Shown here: piece after piece, positions 29,862 to 35,573 of the stretch
How positions within the stretch are numbered: the first letter of the stretch is position 1
Layout of the letters: each line of letters opens with the position of its first letter
From: Dehalococcoidia bacterium
GTDB lineage: Bacteria > Chloroflexota > Dehalococcoidia > Dehalococcoidales > RBG-16-60-22
Reading direction: 5' to 3'
DNA length: 47,669 nt
Assembly (NCBI GenBank): GCA_003141235.1
Contig: PLLL01000069.1
Coordinates: 8,734 to 56,402 of the forward strand
Made by a program: the position numbers and the translations under genes
Notes under the pieces: model-generated
Database searches by the model: none
What the model saw: only the letters and a program-made list of their open reading frames with translations
What the model was told of the DNA's origin: nothing

Positions 29862-30806
29862 TTGGCAGCTTTTATTATCCGCAGGCTCTTACAGACTGTC
29901 GTCGTCGTTTTTCTGGTTACGCTGATAACTTTTATGCTGCTTCAGTTGGTGCCGGGAGACCCGGTGGTGGCTATGCTCGGCGGACAAGCGACACAGGAGC
30001 AGATTGTCGCCCTACAGAAGGAGCTATGGCTGGACCGGCCGGTGGTAGTGCAATACGTACACTGGCTGACGAACGCTTTACATGGCGACCTGGGCAGATC
30101 CATAATGCTGAATGACAGGGTAACCACCATTATCTTCCAGCGGTTACCTTATACTCTCTATTTATCTTCAATTGCTTTTATCATCAGTCCTATCATCGGT
30201 ATTTTCCTGGGTGCGTGGGGCGCGATAAGACGGGGTAAGTTTGTCGACCCATTCATCAGCCTGTTCGCTAATATAGGTATAGCCGTACCTATATTCTGGC
30301 TGGCTATCCTGGGCGCCTATTTCCTGGGTTTCAAGCTTCACTGGTTGGGCATTCAGGGTTTCGTCTGGCCGACCGAAGACCTGGTGAGGAGTATTAAACT
30401 AACTGTCATGCCCGTCATTTGCCTCGCCATTCCTGCTGTAGCGGTGATGGCACGCCAAACGAGGTCGAGCGTGCTGGAAGTAGTGCGTCAGGACTACGTA
30501 AGAACTGCCATGTCGAAAGGCTTGACAGAACGCACCGTAGTATTTAGACACGTTTTAAAGAATGCCCTTATTCCGGTGGTCACTTTACTGGGCCTTCAGG
30601 TACGGGTGCTTTTCGGCGGCTCGGTGCTTGTCGAGCAGGTGTTCAATATCAACGGTATGGGCAGATTGCTGGTCAGTGCCGGTTTTGGCAAGGATTTCCC
30701 GGTTTTGCAGGCTGAGGTTCTTATCATTGGCCTTGCAGTCAGCATAACCAATCTTCTGGTAGACATCTCTTACGGCTGGCTCGACCCCAGAATAAAGTAT
30801 GAGTGA
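29862..30806 (+). CDS. Peptide-type ABC transporter permease (DppB-like)
   Basis: AAFIIRRLLQTVVVVFLVTLITFMLLQLVPGDP, BPD_transp_1; TTG start. Confidence 0.94.
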   Translation: MAAFIIRRLLQTVVVVFLVTLITFMLLQLVPGDPVVAMLGGQATQEQIVALQKELWLDRPVVVQYVHWLTNALHGDLGRSIMLNDRVTTIIFQRLPYTLYLSSIAFIISPIIGIFLGAWGAIRRGKFVDPFISLFANIGIAVPIFWLAILGAYFLGFKLHWLGIQGFVWPTEDLVRSIKLTVMPVICLAIPAVAVMARQTRSSVLEVVRQDYVRTAMSKGLTERTVVFRHVLKNALIPVVTLLGLQVRVLFGGSVLVEQVFNINGMGRLLVSAGFGKDFPVLQAEVLIIGLAVSITNLLVDISYGWLDPRIKYE

Positions 30807-30816
30807 GTAATGGATT

Positions 30817-31713
30817 ATGTCTGAGGTTAAAATCCCTCTAGCAGAACCAGGAACCGCTCCGCAGCACGTCAGCGAGCTTCGCCGTATGGTTAAGGTGATG
30901 TTAAGCCGCTGGATAGTTGTTTTTGGTACGGTTATCATCCTGATATTAATACTCGTTGCTATTTTCGCGCCCTTATTAGCCCCCTATGACCCTAATGAAC
31001 AGCATCTAAGTATTACTCTACAACCTCCTTCAAAGGAGTTCCGTTTGGGCACGGATGACCTCGGAAGAGATTTGCTAAGCCGCATCATCTGGGGCTCGCG
31101 GATATCGATGCTGGTAGGTATTGTAGCGGTAAGCATCGCCGGCGTCTTCGGCATGGGACTGGGACTGATAGCTGGCTATTACGGCAAATGGACTCAGAGC
31201 ATTATCATGAGATTTATCGATGCCCTTATGGCTATCCCGCCCCTCGTGTTAATCCTTGCGATAGCGGCAGTGCTAGGCAGTGGTCTTTTCAACGTACTGT
31301 TGGCTATTGGTGTGGGTTTGATGCCGACCTACTGCCGCCTGATGTGCGGCCAGATACTATCTTTAAAAGAGAATGATTACGTCATTGCTGCCAGGTCGGT
31401 AGGCGCCAGTAATGCGCGTATCATGCTCCGGCATCTTCTTCCCAACTCCTTCCCCCCGCTGCTGGTATTGATTACGCTTAACATGGGTTCGGCTATCCTG
31501 ATGGAGGCGACCTTAAGTTTCCTGGGCATCGGCATCAGTCCGCCCACAGCGACCTGGGGAGCCCTGATCAGCGACGGACAAACTCATATACTTAACAGTC
31601 CTATGCTTTCTTTCCTGCCGGGTATCTGTATATTGCTTGTCGTCCTTTCGTTTAACATGGTAGGTGACGGCCTGAGAGATGCTTTAGACCCCAGGCTGAG
31701 GGGGACATTATAA
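30817..31713 (+). CDS. Peptide-type ABC transporter permease (DppC-like)
   Basis: LGTDDLGRDLLSRIIWGSRISMLVG; MVGDGLRDALDPRLRGTL C-terminus. Confidence 0.94.
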   Translation: MSEVKIPLAEPGTAPQHVSELRRMVKVMLSRWIVVFGTVIILILILVAIFAPLLAPYDPNEQHLSITLQPPSKEFRLGTDDLGRDLLSRIIWGSRISMLVGIVAVSIAGVFGMGLGLIAGYYGKWTQSIIMRFIDALMAIPPLVLILAIAAVLGSGLFNVLLAIGVGLMPTYCRLMCGQILSLKENDYVIAARSVGASNARIMLRHLLPNSFPPLLVLITLNMGSAILMEATLSFLGIGISPPTATWGALISDGQTHILNSPMLSFLPGICILLVVLSFNMVGDGLRDALDPRLRGTL

Positions 31714-31853
31714 TTAGGTCGATGTAATTCTTGCGGTTAATGCAATAATTCTTTGAACAGGCTTAATCTGTATTACCAGCAAGGTGATATACTTTCACAG
31801 TATTATCATAAAACAGATTCCATTTTCTGAAGGTATCTATTGAAGGAGGTAAA

Positions 31854-33953
31854 GTGACCGGAAAAACCAAGTTTCAAAAGATACTGGAACCTTGTAACCT
31901 GGGGCCGCTGCAGCTTAAAAACCGTATGATAAAAACGGCATCAGGAACAGCCAGCAGTTACGACATGGGCGGCTTCGTAAATAAAAGGCACCTCGCCATG
32001 TATGAAGCCATCGCCAGAGGCGGCGTGGGTCTCATCATCGTAGAAATGGGCGGGATTGACCCTCCCCTGGGCCTGCATAATCGCAATCAGCTGCTTCTCA
32101 ACGATGATGAGCATATTTCCGGCTTCAGCGAATTGACCCAGATTATCCACAAACATGGCTGCTATACATTGCAGCAGTTGTTCCATGCCGGGCCATGGCA
32201 TGACCCCCATTCCGGTTTTCAGCCGATTTCCTCTTCATCCATGATGGCGGATGAAGTACTAGGGCTTATTCCGTCTGAAGTGCCCACGGCGCTATCCGGC
32301 AACCAGTTGCCCCGTGGTATAACCATTCCGGAGATTGAAGACATTGTGGATAAGTTCGCCATGACAGCCGAACGGGCGAAGAAGGCCGGGTTTGACGGCG
32401 TGGAGGTAAATTGCGGCACCGGCCACCTCGTTAATAGTTTTCTATCACGCATCTGGAACAAGCGCGAGGATTCCTATGGCTGCCAGAACATGGAAAACCG
32501 AACCCGGTTTGCGGTTGAAATCATACGCGAAATTAAGAGGCGCCTGGGACAGGATTTCGTGATTTCGGCGCTGGTTAATGTCATGGAACTCGGACACGCC
32601 AAAGGCACGACAATCGGTGAAAGTCAACAGATTGCCCGGATTTTACAGAAGGCCGGCGCTGATTGTATCCATGCCAGAGCCAATGCATATTCCGGCCTGC
32701 CTGAAATTATCAGGGCGGAGCAATATTTCTATCCCGAGCCTCCGAAACCATTAATAAAAGAGCTCGATTGGAGGCGTAAAGGGGCAGGGGCGCTTGTCCC
32801 CTTAGCGGCCGCCATTAAAGAAGTAGTCTCGATACCGGTTATTACCGTAGGCAGACTCGACCCGGTCATCGGGGAAGAGGTTCTACGTCAGGGCAAGGCA
32901 GATTTGATTGGTATGACCAGGCGTCTGCTGGCGGACCCGGAGCTCCCGAATAAAGTAGCTTCCGGTAAAATGGAGGAAATACGCCCGTGCACCGCCTGCC
33001 TGTTTTGCACTTCACGGATACGCACTTACCTTCCTATTGCCTGCCAGGTGAACGCCGCTTTAGGTAACGAAGCGGACTACATCATCAAACCGGCGGAGAA
33101 AAAGAAAAGAGTACTGGTAATCGGCAGCGGCCCGGCCGGCATGGAGGCGGCCAGAGTGTCCGCGATTAAAGGGCACGACGTAATACTTTATGAAAAAGGG
33201 CATAGATTGGGGGGCCTGATGCCCTTGGCTTCACTGGTAAAAGGGCATGAAGGTGAATTTTTAATGGAATTTGTTCACTATCTTGAGAGCCAGATTATCA
33301 AGCTGGGTGTGGATATCAGGATGGGGAAAGAACTTAATCTCAAAATAATCGAGGAACTTAAGCCGGATGCCGTCATCGTGGCGGCGGGCGGTATTCCCAC
33401 CGTTCCGGATATACCCGGAATTAATCGCCGCAATGTGGTCAGCGTTCCCAAACTGCACCGCATGCTCAAGTTTTATTTAAGGTTCCTCAGCCCGATGTTT
33501 CTGGGGCAGCTCACAAAACTCTGGATGCCCATCGGTAAAAAGGTGGTTATTATCGGCGGCGGCTTGCAAGGCTGCGAGCTGGCCGAATTCCTGGTCAAAC
33601 ACGGCAGAAAGGTAACCATCGTTGAATCAGCCGAGACTCTGGGCAATGGAGTCCCCGAGCGCAAGCGGCACCCTCTTTTCCGGTGGTTGAATAAAAAGGG
33701 AGTGACCATGATGGCCGGAGTGAAATACGAGGAGATAACAGCAAAAGGGCTGACCATCGTTACAAAAGAAGGCGAGAGGCAGACTATTGAAGCGGATACC
33801 ATAGTGCCGGCGGAGCCGTTACTGCCAAACCCCGGGCTTCTTGAAACTCTTAAAGGTAAAGTCGCCGAGGTCTATCTCATCGGAGATTGTGCTGAGCCCA
33901 AGGTAATAATCGATGCCGTGGCGGCCGGTTACCGCGTGGCCAATTCTCTTTAA
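31854..33953 (+). CDS. OYE-family NADH:flavin oxidoreductase / 2,4-dienoyl-CoA reductase-like (FMN, 4Fe-4S, FAD)
   Basis: OYE TIM barrel, CTACLFCTSRIRTYLPIAC Fe-S motif, RVLVIGSGPAGMEAARVSAIKGHDV; SD gaaggaggtaaaGTG. Confidence 0.93.
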   Translation: MTGKTKFQKILEPCNLGPLQLKNRMIKTASGTASSYDMGGFVNKRHLAMYEAIARGGVGLIIVEMGGIDPPLGLHNRNQLLLNDDEHISGFSELTQIIHKHGCYTLQQLFHAGPWHDPHSGFQPISSSSMMADEVLGLIPSEVPTALSGNQLPRGITIPEIEDIVDKFAMTAERAKKAGFDGVEVNCGTGHLVNSFLSRIWNKREDSYGCQNMENRTRFAVEIIREIKRRLGQDFVISALVNVMELGHAKGTTIGESQQIARILQKAGADCIHARANAYSGLPEIIRAEQYFYPEPPKPLIKELDWRRKGAGALVPLAAAIKEVVSIPVITVGRLDPVIGEEVLRQGKADLIGMTRRLLADPELPNKVASGKMEEIRPCTACLFCTSRIRTYLPIACQVNAALGNEADYIIKPAEKKKRVLVIGSGPAGMEAARVSAIKGHDVILYEKGHRLGGLMPLASLVKGHEGEFLMEFVHYLESQIIKLGVDIRMGKELNLKIIEELKPDAVIVAAGGIPTVPDIPGINRRNVVSVPKLHRMLKFYLRFLSPMFLGQLTKLWMPIGKKVVIIGGGLQGCELAEFLVKHGRKVTIVESAETLGNGVPERKRHPLFRWLNKKGVTMMAGVKYEEITAKGLTIVTKEGERQTIEADTIVPAEPLLPNPGLLETLKGKVAEVYLIGDCAEPKVIIDAVAAGYRVANSL

Positions 33954-34129: not shown

Positions 34130-35573
34130 ATGCAGACATTTATTATTGAAAACCCGTAGGGCAGAAGACCACGCACTTGTGCGTGGATGAATGAAAGCCA
34201 AACGAGCGAAAGCTCGAAACGTTAAAGAACCACGCGCTTGCGCGTGGGTATCTATTAAACGGTTATTACAGAGTGTATTAGTACTTCTTGTACTTACCTT
34301 CCTCGTGTTTCTGGTTATCCATTTATTACCTGGTGACCCCCTATTGCTTTACACCGGGCAAAGCAATGCCGCCACTTTATCAACCGAGCAGCTCCATAGT
34401 CTACGGGCGGAGTATGGATTGGATAAACCATTGCTGGTGCAGTATTTTGTCTGGATATATAACGTTCTCCACGGCGACATGGGAAAATCAATCTTCTATA
34501 ACGATAAGGTAAGCACCCTGATTATTCAACGCATGCCGGTGACTATTCATTTGGGGTTAACGGCCATCCTGATAGGCGCTATTGTCGGTATCACTTTCGG
34601 TGTAATTTGCGCTCTAAGGCGCGGCAAATGGATTGACTCATTGTTAACTTTCATTGCCAACATCGGGATAACAGCGCCTGGATTCTGGGTGGGTATTTTG
34701 ATGATTTATCTTTTTCCCTCCAGCTGCATTGGCTGCCTACCAATGGCTATACCTCGCCCTTTCAGGATTTCTGGAAAGAAGGTGATGGTCATCGGCGGCG
34801 GCCCGGCCGGTATGGAAGCCGCGCGGACTCTGGCAGAACGCGGTCATGAAACTTCTCTCTATGAAAAGTCCGATAAACTCGGCGGTCAATGGAAACTGGT
34901 TTCCAACTTTCTGCCTGATGAGGCGAAGCTTATCAACTATCTGTCAACCGGCATGCGGAAAGCCGGCGTAAAAGTCTTCTTGAACCGGGAGGTAACCGCC
35001 GCGATGGTTGAAGAAATGAAACCGGATGTGGCGGTAGTCGCCACCGGGTCTGACCCGGTCCCTCTGCACGTACCGGGGGCTGACGGTAAAAATGTAGTCC
35101 AGGCTACTGGTGTTTTGGCTGGAAACATTGAACTGGGAAATGAGGTAGTGATAATCGGCGGGAGGCTGGTCGGCCTGACGACTGCCCTTTTCCTGGCTGA
35201 ACAGGGTAAGAAGGTCTCAGTAATCACCCGGAATAAAATTGCCCGCGGACTAATGCATAATACCAAAATGGTCTTCCATGAATACCTGTTGAAAAATAAT
35301 GTCCGCCTGTTTCCTAACTGCACGCCGGAAAGTATTACGGAAAACGGCGTTAACTGCTGGTGGGATAGCGGAGAGCCTCCGGAGAAGGATAATATATTCT
35401 TTTTCTTAAAGGCGGATAACGTAGTTTTGGCCGTCGGGGCGGTTAATAATTACCGGCTGGGCGACCTGATTACCGGAATCGTACCCGAGACCTATAAAAT
35501 AGGGGACTGTTCGGGGAAGCGCAGCGTTTTTGCGGCCATGCGCGAAGGCTCGGAAATAGCGCGGAAGATTTAA
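34130..35573 (+). pseudogene. Degraded chimera: DppB-like permease N-terminus (interrupted and frameshifted) fused to the C-terminal FAD/NAD(P) half of an OYE/FadH-like reductase
   Basis: MQTFII (34130-34147) + insert + IKRLLQSVLVLL...; out-of-frame FSLQLHWLPTNGYTSPFQDFWK after the T5 run at 34711; KKVMVIGGGPAGMEAA from ~34777. Confidence 0.85.
34148..34253. mobile_element. ~106-bp hairpin-rich insert resembling an IS200/IS605-type right end or non-autonomous derivative
   Basis: Hairpins CCACGCA-CTTG-TGCGTGG (34169-34186), CGAGC-GAAA-GCTCG (34203-34216), CCACGCG-CTTG-CGCGTGG (34230-34247); splits the dppB-like 5' end. Confidence 0.5.

Follow-up and report, generated by a model that had tools for sequence, protein, structure and literature searches.

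A short hairpin-rich insert in a dppB-like gene of a Dehalococcoidia bacterium is best explained as a transposase-less, PATE-like derivative of an IS200-type insertion sequence

What interrupts a dppB-like gene near its 5′ end in this Dehalococcoidia bacterium, and is it a guide-RNA element or a piece of mobile DNA? In the window, by which we mean the whole stretch of 47,669 nucleotides analysed here (contig PLLL01000069.1), the ATG at 34130 reads MQTFIIENP* and the stop codon lies within foreign sequence. Excising positions 34147-34255 brings ATGCAGACATTTATTAT next to TAAACGG and yields MQTFIIKRLLQSVLVLL (MQTFIIKRLLQ), so that the reading frame is back. The comparison with uninterrupted genes that the first-pass annotation had proposed is available from about 18 homologues in related genomes, which start with MTTYIIRRLLQ or similar and lack the insert. 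The hairpin-rich insert reported in that annotation is thus real, although its size, put at about 106 bp, has to be corrected to 109 bp. Folded as single-stranded DNA the insert forms four stems (z −4.9 against shuffled sequences; z −4.4 when folded as RNA), namely the two CTTG-capped hairpins and the GAAA-capped one already described, plus a small CCC/GGG stem on the left that had been missed. With a probability of about 95%, the insert is a PATE-like derivative (PATE, palindrome-associated transposable element), produced by internal deletion, of an IS200-type insertion sequence that carries tnpA only. Its parts, all on the forward strand, are as follows.

34130-34146, forward: 5′ end of the dppB-like gene, the left flank (MQTFI plus 2 bases), from the reading frame and homologues with MTTYIIRR.
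34143-34146, forward: target tetranucleotide TTAT, the predicted left cleavage site C_L, kept in the left flank (IS608 guide rule, foot AAGA; gene exactly restored when joined to 34256).
34147-34255, forward: 109-bp non-autonomous element of the IS200 type (PATE-like), complete (79% identity to L010 over almost its full length; ends common to the tnpA-bearing L025, L037 and L038).
34153-34161, forward: CCC-GTA-GGG mini-stem of the left end, kept in 11 of 11 distinct aligned left ends.
34165-34168, forward: left guide G_L (AAGA), which by the guide rule predicts TTNT.
34169-34186, forward: left-end palindrome CCACGCACTTGTGCGTGG, with compensatory changes at 3 pairs.
34203-34216, forward: GAAA-capped internal stem, a relic of the tnpA 3′ end (CAAGCGAAGCTTGA, coding ..QAKLE in the parents), from alignment to the parents.
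34226-34229, forward: right guide G_R (AGAA), which by the guide rule predicts CTNT.
34230-34247, forward: right-end palindrome CCACGCGCTTGCGCGTGG, with compensatory changes at 3 pairs.
34252-34255, forward: predicted right cleavage site C_R (CTAT), the last bases of the element (guide rule; GTATCTA(T/C) is conserved in all right ends).
34256-34778, forward: remainder of the dppB-like pseudogene, then a Pyr_redox_2 flavoprotein fragment, with the frame lost at about 34715 (SLQLHWLPTNGYTSPFQDFWK).

The insertion halts dppB after six of its own codons. An in-frame ATG at 34191, within the insert, opens a frame that runs through it into the rest of dppB, and this is what could be said for chance hairpins or a native regulatory leader of dppB that starts at 34191. 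However, homologous dppB-like genes lack the sequence, homologues of the insert occupy unrelated places in other genomes and the gene downstream of the insert is frameshifted, which together already contradict a leader or chance hairpins and leave this reading hardly credible. The dppB-like remnant loses its frame at about 34715, where SLQLHWLPTNGYTSPFQDFWK goes on in another frame, and is fused beyond that point to a Pyr_redox_2 flavoprotein fragment; it is therefore a pseudogene whatever is made of the ATG at 34191, and the insert is not its sole lesion. The element broke a transporter gene already in decay. As to the surroundings, in positions 34700-35573 the dppB-like remnant is joined to the C-terminal half, the pyridine-nucleotide part, of an OYE/BaiCD-like flavoprotein, and the region looks like a deletion within a second dppB-dppC-OYE cluster, beside the intact one at 29862-33953, with a flavoprotein part 31% identical to that of the intact cluster. 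With 13 matches to the dppB-like protein in the source genome, the dipeptide/nickel-type permeases are markedly expanded, as they are in some other members of the family.

The origin of the insert is revealed by its relatives. Further copies in the same genome, to which the first-pass annotation had looked, are lacking, as the source assembly returns a single match to the insert region; relatives are instead present in other genomes of the order, of which 156 were surveyed. The insert alone retrieves a full-length relative, L010, in genome G036 (79% over 105 bp), and its left and right parts are found at larger spacing in an element of about 190 bp (G138) and in one of about 530 bp (G133, L025). 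In the latter the space between the same ends is filled by a protein of 142 amino acids that scores 103.9 bits with Pfam Y1_Tnp (PF01797) and 115.6 bits with NCBIfam transpos_IS200 (NF033573), has HIH as its HUH motif and a C-terminal tyrosine in NYVRWQ, and is matched by the solved transposases 2ec2 and ISHp608 TnpA. Two more complete elements with the same plan occur in G085 and G087; the three complete relatives in the order thus each contain one gene, a tnpA of the Y1 (IS200-type) class for 142 amino acids, between ends like those of the insert. This gene content makes the parents IS200-type elements with tnpA alone, about 540 bp long, of which the insert in the window is an ends-only derivative. 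Short CCCGTAGGGCAGAAGACCACG matches in several genomes (L011, L012, L013, L014 and L019) were discarded, being ferredoxin-like coding sequence (..FCPTG.. on the other strand).

These parents also decide the origin of the third hairpin. In them the final tnpA codons (..QDSGQAKLEL stop) reach into the right end of the element, so that CAAGCGAAGCTTGA is both coding and stem; CGAGCGAAAGCTCG of the window aligns with it, and one base pair has changed in a compensatory way (A-U to G-C). On this alignment, the GAAA-capped hairpin is read as the tnpA 3′ end and not as an omega-RNA. A stem, CAAACGAAGTTTG (coding QTKFE), also lies at the tnpA 3′ end of a more distant IS200 element in G106 (L041, 1380-2120), which suggests that the structural role of such a stem beside the right end may be conserved.

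The first-pass annotation had offered two readings, a non-autonomous IS200/IS605-family element or the lone right end of a TnpB element (IS605/IS1341 type), with an omega-RNA guide reading into dppB. The former holds, as both ends are common to tnpA-bearing relatives. The latter drew on a superficial resemblance between TnpB right ends and GATGAATGAAAGCC with its terminal hairpin; it is very improbable, and so is a relic of such a TnpB element. The insert also has a left end, guide included, and hence both ends with cleavage sites and guides, so that it is no solo right end, and the full-length parents are tnpA-only. Moreover, GATGAATG (or GGTGAATG), part of the feature taken for a TnpB right end, stands directly 3′ of the left hairpin in 11 of 11 aligned left ends. 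Neither tnpA nor tnpB is present in the window, as had been noted, and the source assembly contains no tnpB that could end in the insert sequence; among the 156 genomes surveyed in the order, the cut-off for tnpB is passed in only 3, and no convincing match to these elements was seen at the tnpB loci there, which also speaks against derivation from IS1341. A search of the insert against Rfam (cmscan), which may not cover all omega-RNAs, gave no meaningful match. The insert is an ordinary relic of mobile DNA, not a guide-RNA element.

Across the copies, the subterminal palindromes are kept by base pairing, with compensatory changes in both stems. Covariation amounts to 0.253 in the left stem (0.088 when shuffled) and to 0.168 in the right stem (0.049 when shuffled), and neither value is reached in any of 500 shuffles. 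Such compensatory variation is as expected of terminal hairpins that are read as single-stranded DNA. Some right ends have turned into perfect palindromes (ATAGATACCCACGCGCTTGCGCGTGGGTATCTAT; L035 1-140 in G114, L015 and L020); in G114, AAAGAA is replaced by GATACC in one of four copies, which is what a template switch at a hairpin would produce. Perfect palindromes standing alone (GTAGATACCCACGGGC..GCCCGTGGGTATCTAC) are present in G008 and G038.

Each hairpin of IS608 is preceded on its 5′ side by a guide of four bases that recognises the cleavage site by base pairing (GL AAAG with CL TTAC and GR GAAT with CR TCAA), and the pairs include A+16:T-3 and A+17:T-4 (PMC5934647). This puts guide base 1 opposite site base −3 and guide base 2 opposite −4; the pairing of guide base 4 with −1 is our own reading of the two IS608 guide/site sets. 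With the four bases that immediately precede each stem on its 5′ side taken as the guide, this rule predicts the flank in 13/13 left ends (4.2 expected with guides dealt anew, in an 11-nt window) and in 12/13 right ends (7.1 expected), figures that are indicative and whose P values are optimistic, as the register was picked after inspection from the two tried and the copies are related. The one exception is the right end of L030. Left guides AAGA or AAAA go with TTAT, AGTT with CTAA, AGTC with CTAG and GGTT with CCAA; right guides AGAA or AGTA go with CTAT and AGTG with CTAC. The register one base further 5′ (GAGT with TCNA) suits some copies, but fails for the AAGA/AAAA left ends, and the adjacent register was retained. 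In the window, the target TTAT and the right cleavage site CTAT define an empty site that exactly restores the gene, and the element sits 3′ of the TTAT tetranucleotide with no target duplication.

Under the IS200 derivation, both ends fold as single-stranded DNA into hairpins to which a Y1 HUH transposase acting in trans would bind, the four bases ahead of each hairpin pair with its site (AAGA:TTAT on the left, AGAA:CTAT on the right), and the single-strand circle, once excised, would have inserted directly 3′ of TTAT, within codon six of the dppB-like permease gene, without duplicating the target. Mobilisation by TnpA in trans and its timing are inferred; for the former there is an indirect hint in G087, which harbours both the autonomous copy L038 and the mini-element L030, with identical left guides. 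A cognate TnpA was not found in the source assembly (92% complete). The assembly does encode one IS200 TnpA (C116), which shares 34% identity with the G133 protein; mobilisation by C116 is not favoured, as the palindromes in its flanks differ. The genome also encodes a REP-type Y1 protein (C15; 68 bits, under the NCBIfam cut-off of 80), which could make the insert a REP/BIME-type palindromic repeat mobilised by that RAYT-like protein. However, the palindromes beside the RAYT-like gene are of the GTAGGGGCAGG type, unlike the CCACG stems of the insert, which is unrepeated in the genome and carries a left and a right end of the IS200 type, each with a cleavage site of its own; the IS200 parents already contradict a REP/BIME origin, which is thus highly unlikely. 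Neither the resident IS200 TnpA nor the RAYT-like protein is likely to serve the element. Because the copy is single in the assembly, where no insertion polymorphism was seen, and the matching TnpA is absent, it is probably stranded and immobile now.

Among known systems, the transposase-less IS200 derivative most resembles PATEs, which have been described in Haloquadratum (PMC3119063), with a PATE-like sequence in Halanaerobium (PMC7290912). As in PATEs, the sequence is too short to encode a transposase, has no terminal inverted repeats or target duplication, has near-terminal palindromes in common with IS200/IS605 elements and has arisen by deletion of the core. The 52-bp terminal-only form of the Haloquadratum PATEs (PMC3119063) has a counterpart in L017 (G038, around 1485), a version about 50 bp long whose left and right ends merge through one shared palindrome. 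Unlike PATEs, the parent here is a tnpA-only IS200-type element and not IS605/IS1341, the window element is single-copy in its genome and the host belongs to a different bacterial order. IS200-type insertion sequences (IS200/IS605 family, tnpA only) share their ends with it, as seen in the three tnpA-bearing elements of related genomes, and it obeys the IS608 guide/cleavage-site rule, whereas it lacks the transposase gene. IS608 of Helicobacter pylori, the model of guide-directed single-strand transposition (PMC5934647), likewise has a hairpin per end, a 5′ tetranucleotide guide and the same pairing scheme, but it has tnpB and targets TTAC, whereas the copies described here target TTAT, CTAA, CTAG or CCAA. 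REP/RAYT systems (REPtron; PMC8266576) have in common palindromes processed by a Y1 HUH protein; in contrast to them, the window element lacks dispersed palindromes tagged with GTAG, has two different ends and derives from a true insertion sequence.

In all, a would-be guide-RNA element is replaced by a precise account, in which the insert is an IS200 derivative reduced to its ends and the cleavage sites are mapped. Whether this IS200 clade and its mini-elements form a natural retargeting series, in which changes in the left-hairpin guide switched the target (TTAT, CTAA, CTAG, CCAA), is in our judgement evenly balanced; the same even judgement applies to the accompanying idea that the stem overlapping the tnpA 3′ end, kept by pairing even where the gene is gone, may have an extra role in end recognition. 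The set of copies lends natural support to the DNA-guide rule established with IS608, here in another bacterial order, and it supplies pairs of tnpA and ends with different natural target tetranucleotides that can be assayed directly.
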